Below, piece after piece: positions 8,481-41,828 of a stretch of DNA of 64,000 nt. The notes under the pieces are model-generated. The model did no database searches, was not told where the DNA came from, and saw only the letters and a program-made list of their open reading frames with translations. Position 1 is the first letter of the stretch; the number at the start of each line of letters is the position of its first letter. Source of the stretch: Halanaerobiales bacterium (GTDB taxonomy: Bacteria; Bacillota; Halanaerobiia; Halanaerobiales; DTU029); contig JARRCS010000002.1 of the NCBI GenBank assembly GCA_029981855.1, positions 62,001-126,000 on the forward strand. The letters are read 5' to 3'. The position numbers and the translations under genes were made by a program.

Positions 8481-8566
8481 AACTACAAATAGATGTTGGA
8501 AAGATGTTCGGTAATTTTTTGTAAAAGTCTTGTTGAATCGGAGTTAAAAATCAGGTCGAGCCACCG
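8481..8566 (+). repeat. Dispersed repeat A, long form (left part)
   Basis: It begins AACTACAAATAGATGTTGG and continues through TTGAATCGGAG, AAAAATCAGGTCGAG and CCACCG up to the ftsY stop codon. The closing right arm is missing. The same long-form interior occurs at 38,340-38,423 and 23,893-24,056. Confidence 0.7.
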
Positions 8567-9646
8567 TTAAGATTCTTGTTCTGCAAAAAGGGCCTCGATA
8601 AACTCACCGGGTTTGAAGTCCTGCAGGTCCTCGGCTGCCTCACCGACTCCTATTAACTTGATCGGTATCCCCAGTTCATTTTTGATGGCAATAACTATTC
8701 CGCCCTTGGCCGTGCCATCGAGTTTGGTCAGAGCAATTCCGTCTACATTGACAGCTTCATTAAAGAGTCTGGCCTGGTTCAGAGCATTCTGGCCGGTGGT
8801 GGCATCAAGTACCAAAAGAACCTGGATATTCGCCCTTTCTGCCTCCCGATCGATAACTCTTTTTACCTTTTTTAACTCTTCCATCAGATTCTTCTGGGTA
8901 TGAAGGCGGCCGGCTGTATCGACGATTAATAGATCTAGTCCCCTTGCTTTAGCCGACTGAACCGCATCAAAGGCAACAGCCGCAGCATCTGAGCCCTCCT
9001 GCTGGGCAATTACATTGACACCTATTCTGTCACCCCAGACCTTTAGCTGATCAATCGCAGCCGCCCTGAAGGTATCGCCAGCAGCCAGGATAACCTTTTT
9101 CCCCTGTTCCTTATAACGCCGGGCTATCTTGGCAATAGTAGTAGTCTTGCCGGAACCATTAACCCCAACAACCATCAAGATATTTAATCCTTCCTTTAAT
9201 TCCAGCTCACCACCCTCATCCTGGAGCAGGGCACTTAGTTCCTCTTTAAAGATCCTGATTAACTCCTCAGGCTCACTGATACCCTCTTCTTCGACCCTCT
9301 CTTCCAGGTCTTCGATCAGTTCCATGGTGGTCTTGATCCCTACATCGGCCTGGATCAATATCTCTTCCAGCTCTTCAAAGAGTTCTTCATCAATCTTACC
9401 ATAACCAGTAAAGAGATTGGTCACCTGAAAAATAAAACCTCTTCTGGTCCTGGTTAAACCCTTCTTCAGACGGGAAAATAGACCCTTCTCCTTCTTCGTT
9501 TCTGCCTTTTCTTCATCCGGAAGAACATCTTTGGCCTTTTCTTCAGAGATTGGTATCTCTTTTGCCTCCTTCCCGGCAGGGGCCTCTTTTATCTCCTCAG
9601 CAGTATCTTCTTTTTTATCTTTCTTTTTCTTAAATAGATTAAACAT
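8567..9646 (-). CDS. ftsY: SRP receptor FtsY
   Basis: FtsY is the SRP receptor GTPase that receives ribosome-Ffh complexes at the membrane. The first 60 residues are highly charged (Lys and Glu rich), as in other FtsY A domains. The N domain spans about 70-150 and the G domain holds GVNGSGKTTT at 161-170, DTAGRLHTQKNLMEELKK and TKLDGTAKGG. The 359-residue length fits. The stop codon abuts a copy of repeat A. Gene order smc, JAMM-like gene, ftsY follows the usual smc-ftsY neighbourhood with one extra gene inserted. Confidence 0.96.
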   Translation of the reverse strand: MFNLFKKKKDKKEDTAEEIKEAPAGKEAKEIPISEEKAKDVLPDEEKAETKKEKGLFSRLKKGLTRTRRGFIFQVTNLFTGYGKIDEELFEELEEILIQADVGIKTTMELIEDLEERVEEEGISEPEELIRIFKEELSALLQDEGGELELKEGLNILMVVGVNGSGKTTTIAKIARRYKEQGKKVILAAGDTFRAAAIDQLKVWGDRIGVNVIAQQEGSDAAAVAFDAVQSAKARGLDLLIVDTAGRLHTQKNLMEELKKVKRVIDREAERANIQVLLVLDATTGQNALNQARLFNEAVNVDGIALTKLDGTAKGGIVIAIKNELGIPIKLIGVGEAAEDLQDFKPGEFIEALFAEQES

Positions 9647-27261: not shown

Positions 27262-28752
27262 TCACTCCCTATTCTTTTCCTTTTCTTTATCATCCTCTTT
27301 AACAGCCCTGTCCCGATCTTTAGACTTTAAGGCAGCCGGTCTCATATGGGAGAGATCCAGTATGGTCTGCCTGATTAGATAAGATTTCAGGGCATGATAA
27401 TCAAAGGGAATCAGGGGCCAGAGATAGTAAACCCCGAAGGATTTAGTTAAAACCACCCAGAAGAAGATGATGATAAACATAATTATAAAACCCCAGATAT
27501 TACCTATTATTGCCGCCAGTAGAAATAAAACCCGGAAAAACTTTAAAACCAGGGCCATCTCATAGCCGGGAATGGAAAAGTTACCGATGGCCGCAATGGC
27601 CATATAGAGAATTACCTCCGGTGAAAATAAGCCGACTTTAACGGCAAAATCCCCCAGGAGTAAGGCACCGATTAAACTGAGAGATGTGGCCAGGGTAGTC
27701 GGTGTCTGTATTGAAGCTATGCGAATCAGGTCTATACCGAAACTGGCCAGAATAAACTGCACCCCGAGATTAATGGTACTCTCCTTTTTTACCCCGATAA
27801 ATTGAAGATATTCCGGCAGGTACTCCTTATTGGTAGCCATTAGAAACCAGATGGCAGGTAATAAAACCGAGATAAAGATGGCCAGAATTCTTAACAGAGA
27901 AAAATAGGTGCCTACCAACGGACTCTTTCTATAATCTTCTAAGGTCTGGATATGGGAGAAAAAGGGTGCCGGTAAAATAAGGGCAGTTGGTGAATTATCA
28001 ACTATAATCGCTAAATTTCCCTCAAGGATGTGAGCAGCAACAATATCCGGTCTTTCTGTATACCGGACTAAAGGCAGTGGATTAATCGTTCCCCCGGTAA
28101 TAATCTCTTCTACCGATTTATCGGCCAGGGACAACCCATCGATATCAATACCCTCCAGTTTTTCCCTGACAGCCTTCACCAGATCGAGATTAACAATATC
28201 CTTAATATACACTAAGGCAACATCATTCTTTGACCTTTTACCGACCTGAACCACTTCTGCCCGGAAATTTGCATCTCTGATCCTTCTTCTAACTGCATTA
28301 ACATTAAAGAGCATTGTTTCCACAAAGCCATCGGCCGGCCCCCGGGTTGCCTTTTCTAACTCCGGTTCATCAGGAGACCTTGACAGCGAGGTTCTAGCAT
28401 CTATAACTATCGCCTCATCCTGACCATCAATCAATAATACCTGCGGTCCTGCAAGCACCTCCTGCACGACCTCATCAAGGGTCTTAACTAAACTAACCTC
28501 ATAGTAAGGTAGACGGTTATTTAAGATCTTCTTAATAATATCGACCGAGATATCCTCCCTCTCCGTCTCCATCAGATACCAGATAGGCAGGATAAGTTCA
28601 TCCTTAATAAATCCGTCAATATAGATCAGGCCGGCTTCCCTGCCACCTATTTCAAATTTCCGGACCAGAATATCAAAGCTCTCATCTGCCCCTAATTTCT
28701 TTTTTAAAATCTCTATATTGTCATCTAACTTCTTTTTAATTGGATTCTGCAT
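27262..28752 (-). CDS. spoVAF: SpoVAF / GerA-family spore membrane protein
   Basis: GerA-family proteins form germinant receptor or SpoVA-associated complexes in the spore inner membrane. Residues 1-280 are soluble, with IYIDGFIKDELILPI and ILEGNLAIIVDNSPTALILP. The C-terminal part has about five membrane helices, with PTTLATSLSLIGALLLGDFAVKVG among them. A charged tail ends the 496 residues. Placement directly after spoVAD favours SpoVAF over a GerAA homologue. It is followed by the DUF2229 genes with a 6-nt gap. Confidence 0.85.
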   Translation of the reverse strand: MQNPIKKKLDDNIEILKKKLGADESFDILVRKFEIGGREAGLIYIDGFIKDELILPIWYLMETEREDISVDIIKKILNNRLPYYEVSLVKTLDEVVQEVLAGPQVLLIDGQDEAIVIDARTSLSRSPDEPELEKATRGPADGFVETMLFNVNAVRRRIRDANFRAEVVQVGKRSKNDVALVYIKDIVNLDLVKAVREKLEGIDIDGLSLADKSVEEIITGGTINPLPLVRYTERPDIVAAHILEGNLAIIVDNSPTALILPAPFFSHIQTLEDYRKSPLVGTYFSLLRILAIFISVLLPAIWFLMATNKEYLPEYLQFIGVKKESTINLGVQFILASFGIDLIRIASIQTPTTLATSLSLIGALLLGDFAVKVGLFSPEVILYMAIAAIGNFSIPGYEMALVLKFFRVLFLLAAIIGNIWGFIIMFIIIFFWVVLTKSFGVYYLWPLIPFDYHALKSYLIRQTILDLSHMRPAALKSKDRDRAVKEDDKEKEKNRE

Positions 28753-28784
28753 CTTGCCACCTCATTATCGATATGGGTACATAA

Positions 28785-29798
28785 TCATCCCGGAATCTTT
28801 TCAATTACCACGGCATGGGCAATACTGGGGATACTCTCATTTTGTAGAGTAGAAAGAGAACTCAATAGGGCCCCGGTTCCTACCGCCAGTACCCTGTTTA
28901 GTTCTCCGGCAATTATCTTTGGTATGATAACACTACCTATAATTACAGCCGAGGCAGCACAACCGCTACCACCGGTGCCATATTTTTTATCTTCACCAAA
29001 GATCATTGCCCCGCAATCATTTAGCTTTTGACCCAGTTTTACATTTTTCTCCTCTAACATGGAATTTAATATATCAAGACCGGCCCTGCCCAGATCTCCT
29101 GTCAGGATTAAATCATAATCCTGCGGCCCCCGGCTTAGATCCATAAAATGTTGTAGGATAGTATCGGCTGCCGCCGGGGCCATTACTGAACCCATATCAT
29201 TAGGGTCTTTAATTCCCAGGTCCAGTACCTTACCGAAGGTGCTGTGGGTAATCCAGACCTGACCGCCTAACCATCCCAAAATATAGGCACCTGTTCCTGT
29301 AACCGTCCACTGTTTATAGGGAGGATACTGGTTACCGTACTCTAGCGGTGTTCTGTACTGCCTCTCTGCAGTCTGGTAATGACTGGAACTAAAAGCCAGA
29401 ATACAATCGGCAAATCCCCCATCCAGATATGAACTTCCCAGAGCCAGGGCTTCAATCATAGTTGAACAGGCTCCATAGATACCGACAAAGGCAATATCAT
29501 AATCTCTGGCGATAAAATTGGCCGTAATAATCTGATCCAGTAAGTCTCCGGCAATAATAAAGTCTATATCAGAGGGGGAAACTGAGGCCTTTCCCAGGGC
29601 CAGGCCAATAGCATCCGAGACCATCTTCTTTTCTCCCTTTTCCCAGGTCTGTTTTCCGCATTTGGCATCTTCGTAGACCAGATCAAAGCTTTTTCCAAAA
29701 GGTCCCTTCCCTTCCTCAGGCCCAACTACCGAGGCTTGACTAACAATATGGGGAGGGTTCTTATAGATTAAGGTTTGTCCGGTTAATTTATCAGCCAT
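28785..29798 (-). CDS. spoVAD: Stage V sporulation protein AD
   Basis: SpoVAD binds dipicolinic acid and is needed for its movement into the spore. The thiolase-like 337-residue protein shows GQTLIYKNPPHIVSQASVVGP, DFIIAGDLLDQIITANFIARD, a GIYGACSTMIEALALGSSYLDGG segment and YDLILTGDLGRAGLDIL, all typical. SpoVAC and SpoVAEb normally flank it; neither is seen here, so they must be elsewhere or absent. Confidence 0.95.
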   Translation of the reverse strand: MADKLTGQTLIYKNPPHIVSQASVVGPEEGKGPFGKSFDLVYEDAKCGKQTWEKGEKKMVSDAIGLALGKASVSPSDIDFIIAGDLLDQIITANFIARDYDIAFVGIYGACSTMIEALALGSSYLDGGFADCILAFSSSHYQTAERQYRTPLEYGNQYPPYKQWTVTGTGAYILGWLGGQVWITHSTFGKVLDLGIKDPNDMGSVMAPAAADTILQHFMDLSRGPQDYDLILTGDLGRAGLDILNSMLEEKNVKLGQKLNDCGAMIFGEDKKYGTGGSGCAASAVIIGSVIIPKIIAGELNRVLAVGTGALLSSLSTLQNESIPSIAHAVVIEKIPG

Positions 29799-29865
29799 CT
29801 CTTCTCCTCCTGATTTATAAATTAATACCTCACTCTGTTCGGCAACTTACTTTTTACCTTCAAAC

Positions 29866-29920
29866 AACTGCAAATAGATGTTGAAGAGATGTTTGCAATC
29901 GAAAACATCTATTTGTAGTT
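29866..29920. repeat. Repeat A, complete short form
   Basis: A 55-bp palindromic element with left arm AACTGCAAATAGATGTTG and right arm AAACATCTATTTGTAGTT. An inner AGATGTTT can pair with the same right arm, so two alternative hairpins are possible. Confidence 0.85.
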
Positions 29921-29953
29921 TTCTTATCCACAGAAAATGATTAATTAACAAGT

Positions 29954-29982
29954 AGAGCCTGTTATCAAATCAAAACAGGCTC
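29954..29982 (-). terminator. Terminator after the dodecin gene
   Basis: GAGCCTGTT/AACAGGCTC pairs on the minus strand around a 10-nt AT-rich loop, followed by TACTTGTTAATT. The T-tract is weak. Confidence 0.55.
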
Positions 29983-29993
29983 CGGAGGTAAAG

Positions 29994-30203
29994 CTATCTG
30001 TTTTTAACTGGAAAGGCTATCTGTACATTGACCTTATAGTCGTATAACTCTCCGTCCTTTACATCAGCAGTCATGTTCAGAATCTCGACTCCGGTTATCC
30101 CTTCTATGGTCTTACTGGCTTCCCGGACGACATTCTGAACAGCATCTTCCCAGCTCTTATCAGATTCCCCAACTAGCTCAATGATTTTTACCGTTGTAGA
30201 CAA
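29994..30203 (-). CDS. Dodecin family flavin-binding protein
   Basis: Dodecins are small dodecameric proteins that store or buffer flavins. The 69-residue sequence matches: KIIELVGESDKSWEDAVQNVVREASKTI, then GVEILNMTADVKDGELYDYKVNVQIAF. The usual binding Trp is in SWEDA. It is expressed separately, with a hairpin after it; a gap with a small membrane ORF separates it from sigF. Confidence 0.9.
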   Translation of the reverse strand: MSTTVKIIELVGESDKSWEDAVQNVVREASKTIEGITGVEILNMTADVKDGELYDYKVNVQIAFPVKNR

Positions 30204-30302
30204 TATTTAATTCCTCCTTTGTTCGTTAATGCTCAGAAAATTTCCCTTAACTTTTTTCTCTTATTGCTTATTATGGCCAAAAAGCTACTTTGTTATCCAA
30301 AC

Positions 30303-30428
30303 CTATATTTTCAGGGCATCTGTAGGAATCTCCTGGTGCAAACCCGGCATCATAAACCAGAAAATTGCTATAACTAAAATTCCCAGAAGTAATGTCAGAA
30401 TAAATTCCACTAAAAATTCTTTAATCAC
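30303..30428 (-). CDS. Small single-pass membrane protein (41 aa), unknown
   Basis: GTG 30428 follows GCGGGG by about 5 nt and opens 41 codons. The product has a charged start (MIKEF), one hydrophobic helix of about 20 residues (LTLLLGILVIAIFWFMM) and a short polar tail ending TDALKI. I recognise no family. It lies between sigF and dodecin in a sporulation neighbourhood. The reading frame, RBS and helix support it, but codon evidence alone cannot prove it. Confidence 0.5.
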   Translation of the reverse strand: MIKEFLVEFILTLLLGILVIAIFWFMMPGLHQEIPTDALKI

Positions 30429-30486
30429 TATCACCCCGCTATCTATTCTAAATTATATTATTATTTAATCTCCAGGAAATTATACA

Positions 30487-30513
30487 TAAAAAAACACCCG
30501 AAAAATCGGATGT
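30487..30513 (-). terminator. Terminator of the spoIIA operon
   Basis: ACATCCGA/TCGGGTGT followed by TTTTTTTATG on the minus strand begins at the sigF stop codon. Confidence 0.85.
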
Positions 30514-31274
30514 CAAAGTGATTGCCGTAATTCGGCCAGTATTTTCTTTTCCAGCCGCGAGACCTGAACCTGGGAGATTCCCAGATAGTCCGCAATCTCC
30601 TGTTGAGTCTTATCCTCAAAATATCGTAAAAAGATCAGCAAACGGGACCTCTCATCCAGTTTTTTTAGGACTTCAACCAGTTCCAGCTTATCCAGATTCG
30701 ATATCCCGGACTCAGCTGTATTTTCCTCTAGACTATCAACAAGGAACAGGTTGTTTCCATCATCCTCATGAATAGTCTGATAGATCGATGTCGGACTTTT
30801 ACTGGCCTCCATAGCCTGGATGATCTCGCTTTTAGTATACCCGGTCTCTTTAGCCAGCTCACCGATACTGGGAGACCGGTTCAAATTCTTCTTCATCTCC
30901 TCTTCCTTCTGTTTGACTTCCCGGGCAATCTTTTTTAGGGAGCGGCTGACTTTTATTAAACCATCATCCCTGAGATGGAGACGTATCTCTCCGATAATCC
31001 TGGAAACCGCATAGGTAGAAAACCTGATATCTCTACTCAGGTCAAAACCCTTAACCGCCTTAATCAAACCAATAACCCCTATCTGGAAGAGATCCTGGAG
31101 GTCGTAACCGGAATTCTTGAAGCGGTAAGTTACCTTTAAGACTAATTTCAGATTATGCTTAACAAGTTTATCCAGGGCATTTTTATCCCCCTCCTGGGCC
31201 AGTTTAATATTATAGCGGGTTTCTTCCCGGCTCAAAAGTTCCACATCGGGAAGATCAATCATACTATAATTCAT
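30513..31274 (-). CDS. sigF: RNA polymerase sigma-F factor
   Basis: Sigma-F is the first forespore-specific sigma factor. The 253 residues have regions 2 to 4 in order: LVKHNLKLVLKVTYRF and DLFQIGVIGLIKAVKGFD (region 2), LRDDGLIKVSRSLKKIAREV (region 3) and QQEIADYLGISQVQVSRLEKKIL (region 4 HTH). It is the third gene of the canonical spoIIAA-spoIIAB-sigF operon and is held inactive by SpoIIAB until engulfment begins. Confidence 0.97.
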   Translation of the reverse strand: MNYSMIDLPDVELLSREETRYNIKLAQEGDKNALDKLVKHNLKLVLKVTYRFKNSGYDLQDLFQIGVIGLIKAVKGFDLSRDIRFSTYAVSRIIGEIRLHLRDDGLIKVSRSLKKIAREVKQKEEEMKKNLNRSPSIGELAKETGYTKSEIIQAMEASKSPTSIYQTIHEDDGNNLFLVDSLEENTAESGISNLDKLELVEVLKKLDERSRLLIFLRYFEDKTQQEIADYLGISQVQVSRLEKKILAELRQSL

Positions 31275-31287
31275 ATCTCACCTCTCC

Positions 31288-31719
31288 CTACTCTACCGCA
31301 TGATTGAGCTGTTGAGGTATCTTGACCATAGTCACGGTTGTCCCCTTATTAACTTCCGATTCAAGTTTAAATTCATCCATAAAGGAATCTATAAAAGCCA
31401 GGCCTAGTCCCATATGATCATCTTTGGTAGAATAGGAAGGTTGTAAAACGGCCTCAACATCCTCTATCCCCACACCTTTATCAGTTACTTTAATTATCAG
31501 CTTATTGTTATCTATTTTTAAGCTAATATCAATTAGACCCTCTTCAAAGGGATAACCATGAATGATACAATTGGTTACTGCCTCCGAAACAGCAACCTTA
31601 ATCTCTTCCAGCTCACTTAAGGTAAAATCGAGTTCTGAGGCAAAGGTTGCTGCTGTAATTCTGGCTAATCCTACATTACTACTCTTACTTAAGATAGTTA
31701 AATGGGCCTGATTATTCAA
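31288..31719 (-). CDS. spoIIAB: Anti-sigma F factor / SpoIIAA kinase
   Basis: SpoIIAB binds sigma-F and phosphorylates SpoIIAA. It is a GHKL ATPase with VSEAVTNCIIHGYP (N box), KVTDKGVGIEDV (G1 box) and HMGLGLAFIDSFMDE (G2 box). I place the start at TTG 31719 because AAAGGAGG lies 8 nt upstream, giving 143 residues, close to the usual length. It overlaps the spoIIAA stop by 8 nt, so the two are translationally coupled. Confidence 0.95.
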   Translation of the reverse strand: MNNQAHLTILSKSSNVGLARITAATFASELDFTLSELEEIKVAVSEAVTNCIIHGYPFEEGLIDISLKIDNNKLIIKVTDKGVGIEDVEAVLQPSYSTKDDHMGLGLAFIDSFMDEFKLESEVNKGTTVTMVKIPQQLNHAVE

Positions 31720-32071
31720 GGTTATAACCTCCTTTATTAACATCCTCCAGGGCTTGTCCTTCATCATCATATTCCTGCATTATCTTTAATAGACCTGCCA
31801 GGGTAAAGACCTTTTTTACCTGGGGTTTTAGATTAACCAGGGCGACCTTGCCACCACGTTTTTTCAGATATCGATATCTCCCTAGTATGGCCCCTAATCC
31901 GGAACTATCTATAAACTTCACACCCTTGAAATTTAGAATTAAATTCTTTAAGTTACTTTTTTCCATCTTTTCAACTATCTTTTCTTTAAACTGGGGAACG
32001 GTGTGCATATCAAGTTCACCACGTAATTTCACAATTAAAGAATCCCCAGCAATTTTAGTTGATAAATCCAA
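31712..32071 (-). CDS. spoIIAA: Anti-sigma F factor antagonist
   Basis: SpoIIAA is the STAS-domain antagonist that frees sigma-F when unphosphorylated. FIDSSGLGAILGRYR holds the phosphorylated serine (Ser56 or Ser57) in a 119-residue protein. It also starts with TTG, 6 nt after AGGAGG. It opens the spoIIA operon behind a sigma-H-type promoter. Confidence 0.95.
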   Translation of the reverse strand: MDLSTKIAGDSLIVKLRGELDMHTVPQFKEKIVEKMEKSNLKNLILNFKGVKFIDSSGLGAILGRYRYLKKRGGKVALVNLKPQVKKVFTLAGLLKIMQEYDDEGQALEDVNKGGYNLE

Positions 32072-32118
32072 ATTTATTCCTCCTTTTTCTAGATTTTTCC
32101 TGGAGTTTATAATTTTAT

Positions 32119-32143
32119 ATTCTCTATTATTTTAGAAATTCCT
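32119..32143 (-). promoter_or_regulatory. Sigma-H-type promoter of spoIIA
   Basis: AGGAATT (32143-32137), an 11-nt spacer and AGAGAAT (32125-32119) match the sigma-H consensus. The -35 lies in one arm of a hairpin AATTCCTGC/GCAGGAATT. The operon is a classic sigma-H target in B. subtilis. Confidence 0.7.
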
Positions 32144-32164
32144 GCCTGCAAGCAGGAATTTTTG

Positions 32165-32193
32165 GAAAAAAGAAAAAGGCAGGTTTCCCTGCC
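32165..32193 (-). terminator. Terminator after NAPRTase
   Basis: GGCAGG-GAAA-CCTGCC is followed by TTTTTCTTTTTT on the minus strand, a strong stem with a GNRA loop. Confidence 0.92.
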
Positions 32194-32229
32194 AAATACT
32201 TTAAAAAGATATTTAGCTGCATATTTCCA

Positions 32230-33552
32230 TTAATAATCAGCCGGAATGGGCAGAAGTTTGTCGTTATTACAAGCCCTCCGGCCCACCTTGGCCATGTTTA
32301 TCCATTCCCCATCCTTCTTGACCTTGACCACATCTGCAGTAAAGTCATTGTTTGTCCCTTCTACAGAGCTATTAGATAAAAGCCAGCTACCCACCCCGTA
32401 GATATCTACCGGTACCTTAGAACGTTCAAAATCCCTGATTTTATCCGGGTTAAAGCCACCTGTGGCAATGATCTTAACATCCTGACAGTAGCTCCGGGCA
32501 AGCTCAATATCTTCTTCAGGGAGATTCCAGTCCAGGTAGGCATTATCCAGAGCCTTTCTTAACCTGTAGATTAAGCGGGCATTAACTCCGTTATCCAGCC
32601 TCTTGTCACCCAATGGCTCAACACTTATATCCCTGAGGCTCGAGGAGGTATCCGGGCGAACACCAAATAGTTTATAACGTTTGGCCTCCTTCACCTCTCC
32701 TTTTTTAAATAAGGCAAGATACTTTTCAAACATGGTCTTAAGAACCTTCAGGCTTGTACCAATACAGTCATTGTCAAAATCCACCAGGGCTATCCTGTTG
32801 ACATTTAGAGGCATATGCCGGCAGAACTGAATGGTTGCCTCGGCGGTATTCCCGAAAAAGGTAGCAATATAGGAGTGGCTGATGGTACCCCCGCCTTTAC
32901 CACCCCACCAGCTTCCCTGCTCATCAGTGGAAACATAACGGTTGCTGCTGGCTCCGTAGTCCTTATTATAGGCACTGACACCGAGGGTATAGGCATAACC
33001 GTGGAGGGCCTGAAGTTTATAATGGGCGAAACGGGCCGGGAAAAAGAGAATATCCTTTCCCCTGGCCGCTTCTAACACCTGATAAACATTAGTAGCTATC
33101 CGGCTTGCCTCCGTCAGGGAACCCAAAATCGGGGTTTCCAGAATGGCAAAATCACGGTAACGCCCCCTGATCTTCATTACGGGCTCAACATTCATCGGGT
33201 CACCATAGTAGTAAGCCTTTACCCCATCATGACAGGCCTCAACCTCAAGCTGATCAAAGGTGTTGATAAAATTACCATCATCATCAAAATAACCGGTGCA
33301 TTCCTTAAGGATAGCTAAAGCCTCATCTATTCCCCCGATAATCGAATAGGGCTTTCTCCTGGTAAAAATCTGCATCTCCACCTCAATATTTCCTATATCT
33401 TCCCCCTTAAACTTATACCCTTCCTGAGAAAGCTTCTCTAAAATCCTGGAAATATTACGAAAGTAAACATCAGAATACCAGCCTTTAACCATTCTCTCTT
33501 TATCTAATTGAAAGATTTCTACAGGTAATCTCTCACCATTAAATACTGTCAA
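32230..33552 (-). CDS. pncB: Nicotinate phosphoribosyltransferase
   Basis: This enzyme makes nicotinate mononucleotide from nicotinate and PRPP for NAD salvage. WYSDVYFRN near the start and EGTNNDFTADVVKV near the end are typical, and FPARFAHYKLQALHGYAYTLG lies in the catalytic half. I use TTG 33552 (AAGGAG 9 nt upstream) rather than the TTG at 33561, giving 440 residues. It belongs to the shorter bacterial/archaeal NAPRTase subgroup. Confidence 0.9.
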   Translation of the reverse strand: MTVFNGERLPVEIFQLDKERMVKGWYSDVYFRNISRILEKLSQEGYKFKGEDIGNIEVEMQIFTRRKPYSIIGGIDEALAILKECTGYFDDDGNFINTFDQLEVEACHDGVKAYYYGDPMNVEPVMKIRGRYRDFAILETPILGSLTEASRIATNVYQVLEAARGKDILFFPARFAHYKLQALHGYAYTLGVSAYNKDYGASSNRYVSTDEQGSWWGGKGGGTISHSYIATFFGNTAEATIQFCRHMPLNVNRIALVDFDNDCIGTSLKVLKTMFEKYLALFKKGEVKEAKRYKLFGVRPDTSSSLRDISVEPLGDKRLDNGVNARLIYRLRKALDNAYLDWNLPEEDIELARSYCQDVKIIATGGFNPDKIRDFERSKVPVDIYGVGSWLLSNSSVEGTNNDFTADVVKVKKDGEWINMAKVGRRACNNDKLLPIPADY

Positions 33553-33634
33553 TCCTATCAACTCCTTAAGCTGCTGCAGATTTGAATAATAATTCTACGT
33601 AAATCCTGTTATTCCTGCTTTATTATCCATTGAT

Positions 33635-34819
33635 CTAAGAGAAAATATTGATCAGGCTCTTAATCAACTGTTTGATGATCCGATAGATCATCTGAAAAAT
33701 TGAGGCCTTTTCCACATCACGGTCGATGACGATATCAGCCTTTTTCAAGAGTAGATTGCCCTTAAATACCTTAAGTTCACCGATTTTATCTCCCCTTTTC
33801 AGAGGAGCACGGATCTTTTTGTCAATACTAACCACCTTTTTGATCTTATCCTCTTCTCCCTTCTTAACCGGAACAATTAGTTTTTCTTTGATAATTCCGT
33901 TAGCCAGTTCCTCTCTTCCATTATTAACCCTGATCTCCCGGATAATTTCCCCCTGCTCGGCTATCGGCAGGCTCCTGTAGGAACCGAAACCGTAGGTTAA
34001 TAGCTGGGCTGCTTCATTAAATCTTATCTTTGAGCTATCAGCCCCCATAATAACGGCGATAAAGCGTAATCCATCCCTCTCTGCTGTACTGGTTACACAC
34101 CACTTTGCTGCCTCGGTATGACCGGTTTTAAGCCCGTCAGCCCCCTGATAGTGTCTAACCAAACGGTTAGTATTATTTAAAACCGATTCACCATCTCTTA
34201 AATAATCGATCCAGGTAGAGGTCCATTCCAGAACCTTGGGGTATTTTAAGATCTCTCTGGCCATAATTGCCAGGTCGTAAGCAGAGGTATAATTGCCCTG
34301 AACAGAAAGATCATCAGGTGGTAGACCGTTGGTGTTATAAAAGTATGTATTTTTTAATCCCAGTTCTTTAGCCCGTTCGTTCATCCTTTCTACAAAGGCC
34401 TCTTCACTACCATAGAGGTATTCTGCCACCGCCACCGAGGCATCATTGGCTGAAACTATAGCGATAGCCTTCATCATCTCCTCCAGAGTCATCTCTTCTC
34501 CCGGTTCCAGCCAGATCTGTGAGCCGCCCATACTGGCTGCAAAATCACTAACAACGATTTTATCTTCCAGACTAACCCTCCCCTCTTCAAGAGCTTCCAT
34601 TACCAGTAACATGGTCATTATCTTGGTCATACTAGCGGGAGGTAGTTCAAGGTGAGGGTTTTTTTCATAAAGGATCTCCCCGGTCTCATATTCCATCAGC
34701 AGGGCTGATTTGGCAGTTAGTTCAAAAGAAGGCTGCTCAGCTTCAACCGAAATAACAAGTAATAAAATTAGCAATATTGTTACAAGGCTGCTCTTAAGCC
34801 ATTTAAAATTCAGATACAT
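33635..34819 (-). CDS. dacF: D-alanyl-D-alanine carboxypeptidase DacF
   Basis: This S11 penicillin-binding protein trims peptidoglycan and in spore formers affects cortex cross-linking. A signal peptide covers about residues 8-28. The active-site motifs are SMTK at 63-66, SAN at 123-125 and KTG at 231-233. The 394-residue protein ends in a short amphipathic tail. DacF is usually encoded just before spoIIA; here one gene (pncB) lies between. Divergence from the dacB-type copy at 15.8 kb shows two paralogues with different contexts. Confidence 0.9.
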   Translation of the reverse strand: MYLNFKWLKSSLVTILLILLLVISVEAEQPSFELTAKSALLMEYETGEILYEKNPHLELPPASMTKIMTMLLVMEALEEGRVSLEDKIVVSDFAASMGGSQIWLEPGEEMTLEEMMKAIAIVSANDASVAVAEYLYGSEEAFVERMNERAKELGLKNTYFYNTNGLPPDDLSVQGNYTSAYDLAIMAREILKYPKVLEWTSTWIDYLRDGESVLNNTNRLVRHYQGADGLKTGHTEAAKWCVTSTAERDGLRFIAVIMGADSSKIRFNEAAQLLTYGFGSYRSLPIAEQGEIIREIRVNNGREELANGIIKEKLIVPVKKGEEDKIKKVVSIDKKIRAPLKRGDKIGELKVFKGNLLLKKADIVIDRDVEKASIFQMIYRIIKQLIKSLINIFS

Positions 34820-38530: not shown

Positions 38531-39625
38531 TTAATCACCAAAACTGATTCCAATACTCCTGGCAACATTGACGAGTTCTCCTTCAGGGTCAACATTCTTC
38601 TGCTGCCCGATAACATCCTCAAGGGGAGCATAAGATATCTTACCACCTCTGAGGCTGACCATATTACCGAACTTGCCTTCCATGATTAAATCGACTGCTG
38701 CCTTACCGTATCTGGTAGATAGGATCCTGTCATAGGCTGTAGGCTTACCACCCCTCTGTAGATGACCGAGAATGGTTGCCCTTGTTTCCAGCTCTACCAA
38801 TTCCTCTAAGTCGCGAGCAATTTTTTGACCAATGCCACCCAGGCGGATCGGGTCAGGACTATCCTCTACTACCTGACTGACCACAACATCACCGGACTTA
38901 GGCTTTGCTCCTTCGGCAACTACCACAATGCTGAAGTCCTTACCGGCGCGTCTCCTCTCAACAATCTTCTCGGCTACCTTTTCGATATCATAGGGAATCT
39001 CCGGGATCAGGATAACATCTGCCCCACCGGCAATCCCGGCATGAAGGGCAATCCAGCCGGCATATCTACCCATAACCTCCAGGCACATAATCCGGTGATG
39101 GGATTCGGCAGTAGTATGCAGCCTGTCCAAAGCCTCGGTAGCAACCGACACGGCAGTATCAAAACCGAAGGTAACATCAGTTAAAGCCAGGTCATTATCA
39201 ATTGTCTTGGGTACACCGACAACCTTAACCCCTTTTCTGGCAAAATCCCTACCACTGGTCAGGGTTCCATCTCCACCGATGATAATCATGGCATCAATTC
39301 CGGCTTCTTCAATATTCTTTACCCCAACATCGGAAACATCCCGATAAACCGTTTTTCCATCCTCTTCAAAGGGGAACTTAAAGAGATTGGTCTTATTAGA
39401 AGTATAAAGGATGGTTCCTCCCAGGGGGAGTATTCCAGAGATTGCATCCATGTCCAGTTTCACCGTCTGCCCCAGGTACAGGCCGCGGTAACCGTTTTTA
39501 AAGCCGACAACCTCCAACCCGTATTTAAGAATGGCAGTCCTGGTAGCAGCCCTGATGACGGCATTTAAGCCGGGACAATCACCCCCGCCGGTTAGAATTC
39601 CTATCTTTTTAATCTTATTACCCAT
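38531..39625 (-). CDS. pfkA: 6-phosphofructokinase, group III-like
   Basis: It phosphorylates fructose-6-phosphate in glycolysis. The 364 residues include GILTGGGDCPGLNAVIR at 9-25, GGDGT at 117-121, PKTIDND at 139-145 and LEVMGRYAGWIALHAGIAGGAD. Classical ATP enzymes have PGTIDND, whereas a lysine there is found in PPi enzymes and in mixed group III enzymes. The Gly in GGDGT is the ATP-type residue. The Gly/Lys pair leaves the phosphoryl donor open (ATP or PPi). It is a single gene with a long leader holding a C+B repeat and a terminator. Confidence 0.9.
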   Translation of the reverse strand: MGNKIKKIGILTGGGDCPGLNAVIRAATRTAILKYGLEVVGFKNGYRGLYLGQTVKLDMDAISGILPLGGTILYTSNKTNLFKFPFEEDGKTVYRDVSDVGVKNIEEAGIDAMIIIGGDGTLTSGRDFARKGVKVVGVPKTIDNDLALTDVTFGFDTAVSVATEALDRLHTTAESHHRIMCLEVMGRYAGWIALHAGIAGGADVILIPEIPYDIEKVAEKIVERRRAGKDFSIVVVAEGAKPKSGDVVVSQVVEDSPDPIRLGGIGQKIARDLEELVELETRATILGHLQRGGKPTAYDRILSTRYGKAAVDLIMEGKFGNMVSLRGGKISYAPLEDVIGQQKNVDPEGELVNVARSIGISFGD

Positions 39626-39660
39626 AAAAAAATACCTCCCTAGACTATTATTTAAATGTA

Positions 39661-39745
39661 ATGCCTGGGAATTTATGTTATTAAGATAACATAAATTCCG
39701 GCATCAACAAATGGCGAAACCAATTTGTTTTATTTTTTTGCCAAT
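39661..39745 (-). repeat. Composite repeat C+B, copy 2, in the pfkA leader
   Basis: Read on the minus strand: AAAACAAATTGGTTTCGCCATTTG, then TTGATGCCGG, arms GAATTTATGTTAT/ATAACATAAATTC, and CAGGCAT. The order and the junction ATGCCGG match copy 1 at 1,131-1,226. With the predicted promoter at 39.8 kb, the whole element is transcribed in the pfkA 5' leader and ends about 30 nt before the start codon. Confidence 0.75.
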
Positions 39746-39797
39746 TCATGGAATATTCATTGCCCTGTGGAGCACGGATTTACTCCCTTATGGTGTT

Positions 39798-39826
39798 ATT
39801 ATAAATTAGACTCGAGATTAAGTCAA
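39798..39826 (-). promoter_or_regulatory. Sigma-A promoter of pfkA
   Basis: TTGACT (39826-39821), a 17-nt spacer and TATAAT (39803-39798) form a near-consensus promoter about 170 nt before pfkA. Confidence 0.85.
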
Positions 39827-39856
39827 GAAAAGAAAGATAATATACAACAAAATATT

Positions 39857-39943
39857 CTACCAGGCCTGATCCTGCCGGTCCCAGCAACCGGTAAGAAAGA
39901 TTAAAGCTATGATGATTAAACCAGCAATTAATCTGCAGTACAT
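39857..39943 (-). CDS. Tiny lipoprotein ORF (28 aa)
   Basis: ATG 39943 is preceded by GGGGG 8 nt upstream. The 28 codons encode a short basic start (MYCR), a hydrophobic helix (LIAGLIIIALIF) and a perfect lipobox LTGC, then only eight residues, WDRQDQAW, before TAG. If processed by signal peptidase II, the mature product is a lipidated nonapeptide starting at Cys20. It could be a micro-lipoprotein, a peptide signal derived from its leader, or the N-terminal relic of a lost lipoprotein. No partner gene is next to it; it lies between the phased repeat array and the pfkA promoter. Confidence 0.5.
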   Translation of the reverse strand: MYCRLIAGLIIIALIFLTGCWDRQDQAW

Positions 39944-39969
39944 TATTGATTCCCCCTTATCTTCCTGAT

Positions 39970-40502
39970 GAGAACCTGATACCATAGGCCAACCAGAGGA
40001 TCACCAGGGGCTTCCGTTCGCTCGATTAGGGGAAAGAGGGTAAAAATGTTCATCCCTTAAAAGACAAAGAAGCCAACAGTGATCTTCGCTCCGGCTACTG
40101 CAGATCCTAAGCTACCCGCAGCAATCTTTCGACTACTACGAATAGGTTCCGGACCTACAATAACCTTTGCTCGACCATAGCAGATCCAACATGGCATTAC
40201 CTACATCAATCTTCAATCTCCATTGAACACCAATGAGCTAAACACCATTCTCGACACCTGTAATGATCTCCCGACCATTACAGATACCTACTGGACCTAC
40301 TATGATCTTAGCTCGACCACCATAGATCGGTGACGAACCTGCCCCAATCTCCTCGACTGCAGGACAGATCCTTAGCGACCTATGATGATCTGCGCGCCGG
40401 CCATTACAGATCCCATCCGAACCTGTAATGACCTTTGCCCGACCAGTTCAGACCCGTCATACGAGCCTGAACCAGTCTGCGCTCAACCACTGTTGACCTC
40501 AC
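39970..40502. repeat. Phased degenerate repeat array (about 21/42 bp) between galK and pfkA
   Basis: About twenty units follow the pattern ACC-N6-GATC-N8, starting weakly near 39,970 and clear from 40,072. GATC or a one-base variant (GACC, AATC, GATA) falls near 40081, 40103, 40123, 40162, 40183, 40265, 40283, 40304, 40325, 40367, 40387, 40409, 40430, 40451, 40474 and 40495, mostly 20-23 bp apart. The variable 6-mers of neighbouring units are often complementary (TGTAAT/ATTACA, AGTTCA/TGAACC), and the outermost pair AACAGT/ACTGTT is exactly complementary. GC content is higher than in the other gaps. No gene is supported inside it, and 40,503-40,652 shows nothing further. Confidence 0.7.
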
Positions 40503-40652
40503 GTTAAATAGTTTATCCACTATCCAGATTAATATACATAAAAAATGAAAAACACAGAAAAATTTTTTCCGGTTTACAAAACATACCTGTTTCCAGGATA
40601 AAAAGAGGCTATTATTAACAAACTATATTGCATCACTAACAGTAACTTATTT

Positions 40653-41828
40653 TTATTCCTTATTAAGCATTTTTGCTCCATCAGCAGGACTGCTGACATA
40701 GATCTCGGGTCTAATCCCGGTCTCCTGCTCATAACCACTGCTAATCGCATCCATAAAATGGTCAACATTATTCTTTCTGACTAAATTAACGGTACATCCA
40801 CCGAAACCAGCCCCTGTCATCCGGGCCCCTAAAACTCCTTCCTGATTCAGAGCCAGGTCAACCAGCAGATCCAGTTCCCGGCAGCTAACCTCATAGTCAT
40901 CCCTCAGGCTCTTATGGGATTCAATCATTAGCCGGCCGAAAGTAGCAAAATCATTGTTCTTCAGAGCAGCTATACTGGTTAGAACCCTGTTATTCTCGGT
41001 GATGACATGTCTAGCTCGCCGGTAAACGGTGTCAGGTAATTCCGTTCCGAATTCCTCAAGTTCCTCTATAGTCACATCCCTTAAAGCCTCTACCCTGCGG
41101 TCTAATCTCTCTGCAAAAAATTTAGCAGCCTGATTGCATTCCTCCCGGCGCTGATTGTACTCCGAATCGACCAGGCCGCGCTCTACCTTCGAATTACAGA
41201 TAACAACCCTGAAGTCTTTATTTTTAAAGGGGATCAGCTCATACTCCTTTGTTCGACAATCGATCATCAGGGCATGGTCCTTCCGGCCCAGGCGGGAGAT
41301 ATACTGGTCCATAATCCCGCAATTAACCCCAACAAAGTTATTCTCGGCCCGTTGACAGAGAAGGGCCATCTCTACCGGCTCTATCTCTAGATTATTCAAA
41401 TTTGCCAGGGTAAAGGCAGTTACCACCTCCAGGGCGGCTGAAGAGCTTAAACCGGAACCCTGAGGTACATTGCCGGTAAAGGCCAGATTTGCTCCGGTCA
41501 GATGATAACCCATCTTCTCCAGTTCATCGGCCACCCCCTTTAGGTAATTAACCCAGATATTTTCCTGATCAAAGGTAAGGTTATCGAGGGAAAACTTAAG
41601 CTCACTATCATAATCCAGAGAATAAACCTTTAGTAGCTGGTCATCCCTCAGCTGACCTACCATAGTAATCTCTTTTTCAATAGCCATGGGCAGAACAAAT
41701 CCATCATTATAATCAGTATGTTCTCCAATAAGGTTAACCCGGCCCGGAGCGGAAAATGCTCCTTTTTCCCGGCCCGTATCCTTAAATCTTTCTTGAAAAA
41801 ACTGCCATAAGTGCTTAACTATCTCCAA
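40653..41828 (-). CDS. galK: Galactokinase
   Basis: GalK phosphorylates galactose at C1, the first step of the Leloir pathway. The 391-residue GHMP kinase has the galactose signature APGRVNLIGEHTDYNDGFVLPMAI near residues 27-46, PQGSGLSSSAALEVV (ATP loop) and MTGAGFGGCTVNLV. It is the last gene of the gal operon. Confidence 0.97.
   Translation of the reverse strand: MEIVKHLWQFFQERFKDTGREKGAFSAPGRVNLIGEHTDYNDGFVLPMAIEKEITMVGQLRDDQLLKVYSLDYDSELKFSLDNLTFDQENIWVNYLKGVADELEKMGYHLTGANLAFTGNVPQGSGLSSSAALEVVTAFTLANLNNLEIEPVEMALLCQRAENNFVGVNCGIMDQYISRLGRKDHALMIDCRTKEYELIPFKNKDFRVVICNSKVERGLVDSEYNQRREECNQAAKFFAERLDRRVEALRDVTIEELEEFGTELPDTVYRRARHVITENNRVLTSIAALKNNDFATFGRLMIESHKSLRDDYEVSCRELDLLVDLALNQEGVLGARMTGAGFGGCTVNLVRKNNVDHFMDAISSGYEQETGIRPEIYVSSPADGAKMLNKE

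Follow-up and report, generated by a model that had tools for sequence, protein, structure and literature searches.

A large, free-standing structured RNA of an apparently new class with a predicted forespore promoter in a Halanaerobiales bacterium and other Bacillota

Classes of large structured RNA are rare in bacteria, and the known ones (OLE, ROOL and GOLLD) are poorly understood. ROOL and GOLLD have been described as RNA-only homo-oligomers (PMC12286853). In the forespore of Bacillus, the RNAs Bvs196 and CsfG are transcribed independently under the control of sigma-F/sigma-G (PMC9147052). Furthermore, the raiA motif RNA (ModT) is reported to be linked to sporulation in C. difficile (PMC11706538).

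Here, we analysed a window of 64,000 nucleotides from the genome of a Halanaerobiales bacterium (contig JARRCS010000002.1, positions 62,001 to 126,000), in which one locus is almost certainly a single gene for a large structured non-coding RNA that is read on the minus strand. Like OLE RNA (RF01071), this RNA is large, highly structured and free-standing, and occurs in anaerobic or extremophilic Bacillota, while it shares with ROOL and GOLLD the character of a large ornate RNA without an obvious coding role. Its predicted independent transcription and the putative forespore-type promoter directly upstream recall CsfG and Bvs196, and it resembles the raiA motif RNA in being a widespread structured non-coding RNA of Bacillota. 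A comparison with Rfam 15 (4227 families) gave no match at positions 39600-40700, whether at the gathering score or at E<=10, and the RNA was equally without a match to Rfam 15 in seven homologous loci. The only Rfam match of the window was a purine riboswitch (RF00167, 97.8 bits) at 923-1024 on the minus strand. In the open-access literature, no named class was found for RNAs of Moorella, Desulfotomaculum, Halanaerobiales or the forespore. The RNA thus has no counterpart in Rfam 15 or in the open-access papers searched, and apparently forms a new class. In a loose sense it joins the known kind of "large ornate RNA", with no homology to any family tested.

The initial annotation of this DNA had described positions 39970-40502 as an array of ACC-N6-GATC units of about 21 bp. 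Match autocorrelation of this segment peaked at a lag of 42 (z 5.4, with a maximum z below 3.2 in 95% of shuffles) and rose more weakly at a lag of 21 (z 2.6), which bears out the proposed repetition. The exact ACC-N6-GATC pattern was found 5 times vs 0.12 in shuffles, and the reported clustering of GATC was equally borne out (10 vs 3.6 in shuffles). Tandem Repeats Finder did not detect the array at this locus, because its units have only their ends in common. These common ends (G[AG]UC, GGUC) correspond to the termini of helices, beside conserved linkers, and the "21-bp units" are the helix arms and linkers of a folded RNA. The variable 6-mers, which had been noted as complementary, are indeed paired: TGTAAT/ATTACA represents the two sides of P3 and also of P5b, AGTTCA/TGAACC is P2, and the exact outermost pair AACAGT/ACTGTT is P1. 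The spacing corresponds to the length of an arm (15-16 nt) plus a loop or linker, and not to a phasing by two turns of the DNA helix as had been supposed. The left part of the annotated span, from 39970 to about 40050, lies outside the repeat structure, and on the right the element runs on beyond the assigned border into the putative promoter, which reaches 40538. A protein-coding gene at this locus was rejected, in agreement with the earlier statement that no coding frame explains the array: the longest stop-free stretch had a median of 72 aa, compared with 62 aa in shuffles.

On the minus strand, the RNA folds with -258.6 kcal/mol (z -12.8, no shuffle being equally good), whereas the fold of the plus strand is far weaker (z -4.4). 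Overall, a closing helix leads into a junction from which five arms branch off; the main helices number eleven and measure about 15-16 bp (range 14-16). The features are collected in Table 1. In the window copy, 144 of the 145 consensus pairs are canonical and the remaining pair coincides with a gap in the alignment. A hairpin array in an RNA had been among the options raised for this locus; the RNA part of this option was correct, but the molecule is one branched RNA and not a row of hairpins. The six junction linkers share a common theme, GRGC-NAAG, and contribute the extra co-varying pairs P3x, P6x, PJ and P5x, so that the six-way junction resolves into two linked four-way halves. In addition, the sequence of the 3x3 loops under P3 and P6 (AAA opposite GGA) suggests putative sheared G-A stacks.

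Table 1. Features of the RNA locus and the genes sigF, spoIIAB and spoIIAA in the window (positions of the window; all on the minus strand).
Feature	Position	Strand	Remarks
RNA gene, ~434-nt branched non-coding RNA	40069..40502	-	fold z -12.8, covariation; predicted start and end
P1 5' strand, closing helix of 16 bp, partner 40069-40084	40485..40500	-	99.0% of cells paired, 84 sequences
P1 3' strand	40069..40084	-	U-rich tract downstream, 40068-40060
Arm P2, 16 bp hairpin	40441..40477	-	97.5% paired
Arm P3, 15 bp	40394..40438	-	2-bp extension P3x (40438-40437/40395-40394) below the 3x3 loop
Arm P4, 15 bp, bearing P4a (15 bp, 40371-40355/40349-40335)	40315..40390	-	96.7% and 97.3% paired
Arm P5, 16 bp (40307-40292/40188-40173)	40171..40310	-	bears P5b and a variable hairpin; extra pair P5x 40310-40171
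P5b in arm P5	40287-40273/40268-40254	-	GNRA-type loop
Variable lineage-specific hairpin in arm P5	~40253-40189	-	
Arm P6, ~15-16 bp, most conserved arm	40088..40170	-	basis of covariance model R1
P6a in arm P6, 15 bp, GAAA loop	40145-40131/40126-40112	-	
P6x, 2-bp extension of P6	40170-40169/40089-40088	-	
PJ, 2-bp junction helix (40482-40481/40312-40311)	40311..40482	-	links the halves P2/P3/P4 and P1/P5/P6
Weak terminator-like hairpin after the RNA	40033..40057	-	strong counterpart in the closest relative (L022)
Putative sigma-F-type forespore promoter: -35 TGTATA (40538-40533), 14-nt spacer, -10 GGATAAACTA (40518-40509)	40509..40538	-	motif match
sigF	30513..31274	-	TIGR02885 SigF, E 5e-91, 304.6 bits, just under the 321-bit cut-off
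spoIIAB	31288-31770	-	TIGR01925 SpoIIAB
spoIIAA	31712-32071	-	TIGR02886 SpoIIAA

The fold was assessed in an alignment of 84 copies from 45 families with a consensus of 142 pairs. In this alignment, 96.9% of the cells were paired, and changes on both sides were observed at 125 pairs (2715 cells). In controls in which the partners were slid by 1-3 columns, pairing dropped to 32-43% with about 400-600 cells showing both-side changes. The 50 column pairs with the strongest MI-APC signal in the whole alignment all lie within the structure. When the P6 arm was counted independently, it was 98.7% paired, with double changes at 10 pairs vs 3.2 in shuffles. The extra pairs of the linkers vary in the same manner: P3x pair 65-110 reads CG in 44 sequences, GC in 31 and GU in 4, PJ pair 22-191 reads CG in 72 and GC in 5, and P5x pair 193-292 reads UA in 62 and CG in 14. 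RNA folding with covariation across related loci, named earlier as a check, thus yielded strand-specific pairing and strong covariation across the 84 homologues, and this support is about as good as sequence alone allows. Conservation is highest in the junction linkers (0.84) and in the two GNRA loops of P5b (0.89) and P6a (0.92), while the loops of P2 and P3 vary freely and show the lowest values in the RNA (0.40-0.42).

G-U pairs account for 23.8% of the consensus pairs, compared with 0.7% for C/A mismatches at these positions; therefore, selection acts on the minus-strand RNA. This asymmetry also bears on a DNA-level element, namely a protein-binding array or recombination platform phased by two helical turns. 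Although the autocorrelation at 42 and 21 bp and the clustered GATC would fit such an element, C/A mismatches would be expected if the other strand mattered, the variable 6-mers co-vary as base pairs, and the plus strand folds far worse. The single copy in the genome, the intact architecture in 45 families, the conserved promoter and the strand asymmetry likewise speak against the protein-bound DNA platform that the initial annotation had considered. We give a DNA-level element next to no probability.

The RNA gene is free-standing and has its own predicted promoter. Across the homologous loci, the upstream neighbour was on the opposite strand in 52 of 72 cases and the downstream neighbour in 45 of 66. 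A terminator-like hairpin followed by a T-run was present within 75 nt of 20 of 72 homologues, compared with 12 of 360 control pieces. No conserved neighbouring gene was found across families, and synteny was restricted to the family level, as in the Moorella family, where radA and a PHP-domain gene lie nearby, and in family f54 with spoIVA. In the window, the RNA is flanked by galK and pfkA. These are the two sugar genes of the initial annotation, and their identity has no bearing on function because the neighbours vary between lineages. The position of pfkA downstream on the same strand would be compatible with a cis-regulatory, riboswitch-like leader of the downstream gene. However, the prevailing opposite orientation of the downstream neighbour, the terminators after the RNA and the lack of any downstream gene recurring across families make such a leader extremely unlikely.

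The free-standing gene is preceded by a motif of the sigma-F type. A strict regular expression for this promoter matched in 43 of the 84 homologues and in 26 of the 45 families, while shuffles predicted 0.10 matches and the match rate in random 70-nt windows drawn from these loci was 0.23%. Over the 84 loci, the promoter consensus has a -35 element GHATA, a spacer of 14 nt (59/84) and a -10 element GGNNATAATA, and is located about 16 nt from P1 (14-18 nt in most loci). It resembles the sigma-F consensus of B. subtilis, WGHATA-N14-GGNNAHWHTR. In C. difficile, the sigma-F and sigma-G consensus sequences differ little from their B. subtilis counterparts, and sigma-F promoters are told apart from sigma-G promoters by a G that precedes the -10 element (PMC3789822); the two regulons overlap in this organism (PMC7438776). 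The same expression gave nothing convincing upstream of spoIIR in 24 genomes (L184-L207), which had been intended as a positive control. The regions upstream of SASP genes mainly contained GTATA/GCATA-N15-CATAATA-like sites, which are of the sigma-G type and lack the GG, and the strict sigma-F pattern was found upstream of 3 of 30 SASP genes. Taken together, the spoIIR result and the sigma-G-like SASP sites leave the sigma-F consensus without independent calibration in these genomes. Nevertheless, the motif points strongly to forespore sigma factors, probably sigma-F/sigma-G, and the RNA is likely to be expressed in the forespore, as predicted from this promoter.

Related elements, for which the initial annotation had proposed a search in other genomes, were found. 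BLASTN revealed relatives of almost full length (77-83% identity) in three genomes from this order and partial relatives in more distant genomes, and all complete relatives share the same fold. With the covariance model of the P6 arm (R1), matches were obtained in 10 of the 59 genomes of the class (E<=0.01) and in 138 of 398 sampled genomes of the phylum (E<=1e-3), which is about a third. Among 80 distant homologues that were fetched, 72 close with P1 and span 346-442 nt. An exact-pattern scan identified carriers such as Moorella thermoacetica, Desulfofundulus thermosubterraneus and Desulfovirgula thermocuniculi, together with a Pelotomaculum and a Tepidanaerobacteraceae genome. In one genome (G039, locus L033), a shrunken copy at about 8498-8587 keeps parts of P1 and P6 and has lost most arms; it is possibly decayed or minimal.

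The window genome contains one copy of the RNA, and three genomes (G038, G046 and G048) contain two intact copies each. The latter, together with the patchy distribution and the lack of a conserved neighbourhood, would agree with a selfish or mobile element that propagates as a structured RNA and carries no protein gene, as would the contigs that often end at the RNA. Contig ends lie a few hundred bases from it in L109, L114, L118, L153, L154, L156, L167 and others, which suggests near-identical copies or trouble in sequencing through strong hairpins. In the latter case, the contig ends would not favour a selfish element. Moreover, local synteny is kept within families such as that of Moorella, and the RNA possesses a conserved core and a dedicated developmental promoter. 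Searches of phage, plasmid and viral-contig collections, both by DNA comparison and by exact pattern, gave no match. A repeat of the transposon or integron type is equally at odds with one copy in the genome and no neighbouring gene recurring across families. The idea of a mobile-element relic, raised for the array at first, does not agree with the single copy here, the intact architecture across 45 families and the conserved promoter. A selfish RNA is, in our view, highly unlikely.

The distribution of the RNA is associated with spore formation. Within the class, SpoIVA is encoded by all 10 carriers vs 17 of 49 non-carriers (Fisher p 1.3e-4, phylogeny ignored), and all 32 SpoIVA-negative genomes are without the RNA. 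In the phylum sample, SpoIVA was found in 133 of 138 carriers vs 201 of 260 non-carriers (Fisher p 1.2e-7, phylogeny ignored). Three of the five carriers without a SpoIVA match are clearly incomplete (61-80% complete), and the other two are 90% and 97% complete. Many SpoIVA-positive genomes have no detectable copy, and the RNA is therefore not a universal part of sporulation.

In the window, spoIIAA, spoIIAB, sigF and spoVAD are located on the same strand as the RNA, about 8-12 kb downstream. The sigF gene scores much lower with the SigG equivalog than with TIGR02885 SigF, and is a candidate source of the sigma factor, outside the RNA locus proper. The surrounding segment (27262-34819, minus strand) also contains a dacF-like D-Ala-D-Ala carboxypeptidase gene and a GerXA-like (SpoVAF-type) gene, and it comes after a stretch formed by the RNA, pfkA, drm, punA and pdp on the same strand. 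In family f54, the distance between the RNA gene and spoIVA is about 1 kb, with the two convergent, in each of three genomes (L111, L123 and L158). A gene for a SpoVT-like AbrB-type regulator, identified by eye, immediately adjoins the RNA in three loci of two families (L141, L168 and L172).

The putative forespore promoter and the near-confinement to spore formers are the clue to function within the RNA's own data. Combined with the fold, they make it likely that this is a free-standing structural RNA of an apparently new class with a forespore promoter; as its role, we favour that of a rigid scaffold in trans. Transcription from the sigma-F promoter (probably sigma-F/sigma-G) would place the RNA in the forespore after asymmetric division. 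There, the RNA of about 400-440 nt would fold into a compact branched body formed by P1 and the arms P2-P6 with their helices of 15-16 bp. The conserved core of six GRGC-NAAG-like linkers would join the arms via the short extra pairs and the probable sheared G-A stacks, and the GNRA tetraloops on two arms could lock the arms together. A rigid scaffold of this kind could work in trans, in the form of an RNP or possibly of a homo-oligomer, during sporulation or inside the spore.

The conserved core, the variable loops, the helix-locked body and the dockable GNRA loops point to a role based on shape, either as a scaffold of a protein complex or as a self-assembling particle. Pairing with mRNAs is less likely. 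It would be the mode of a trans-acting forespore sRNA like CsfG or Bvs196, which would pair with sporulation mRNAs through its loops; the promoter is of the same class, transcription is predicted to be likewise independent, and Bvs196 (294 nt, sigma-F/sigma-G) is reported to contact the spo0A and sspN-tlp mRNAs (PMC9147052). However, conservation within the RNA is lowest in the candidate pairing loops, P2 and P3, and highest in the junction core, and nearly the whole RNA is held in stable helices. We consider such an sRNA unlikely. The scaffold role itself is proposed tentatively, and no protein partner was found. It is conceivable, though by no means assured, that the developing endospore has this RNA as one of its dedicated structural components. 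The RNA would then be made only in the forespore, form a particle or RNP via the six-linker junction and the tetraloops, persist in the spore, and occur in many anaerobic spore-forming Bacillota. This raises the question of whether the endospore contains a large RNA machine or scaffold.

Comparison with the known systems places the novelty in the RNA class. Many of the genomes with this RNA also contain OLE RNA, among them the window genome, where it lies outside the window (G000:C1:139933-140476, minus strand). However, it is longer (~600 nt), and the RF01071 model gave no match at this locus. Furthermore, OLE RNA occurs in two SpoIVA-negative genomes of family f3 (G014 and G020) that both lack the RNA described here, and was not found in the f8 genomes G038, G046 and G048, which all carry it. 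Co-occurrence with OLE RNA was rejected as an explanation of the distribution of this RNA, since the two distributions differ. ROOL and GOLLD are encoded by prophages or phages near tRNA islands and are longer (659 nt and over 800 nt), whereas this RNA came up in no collection searched other than bacterial genomes, measures about 430 nt and has a putative sigma-F-type promoter. Since the searches against Rfam and against phages, plasmids and viral contigs were all negative, nothing assigns it to ROOL or GOLLD. Bvs196, with 294 nt and a location between hinT and ecsA, has been reported from Bacillus (PMC9147052). Judged by the descriptions of CsfG and Bvs196, this RNA is set apart by its larger size, its branched fold of eleven helices and its lack of fixed neighbours. 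The raiA motif RNA differs as well, given that this RNA matches none of the 4227 Rfam families. Compared with OLE, ROOL and GOLLD, the RNA described here is smaller, chromosomal and tied to development.
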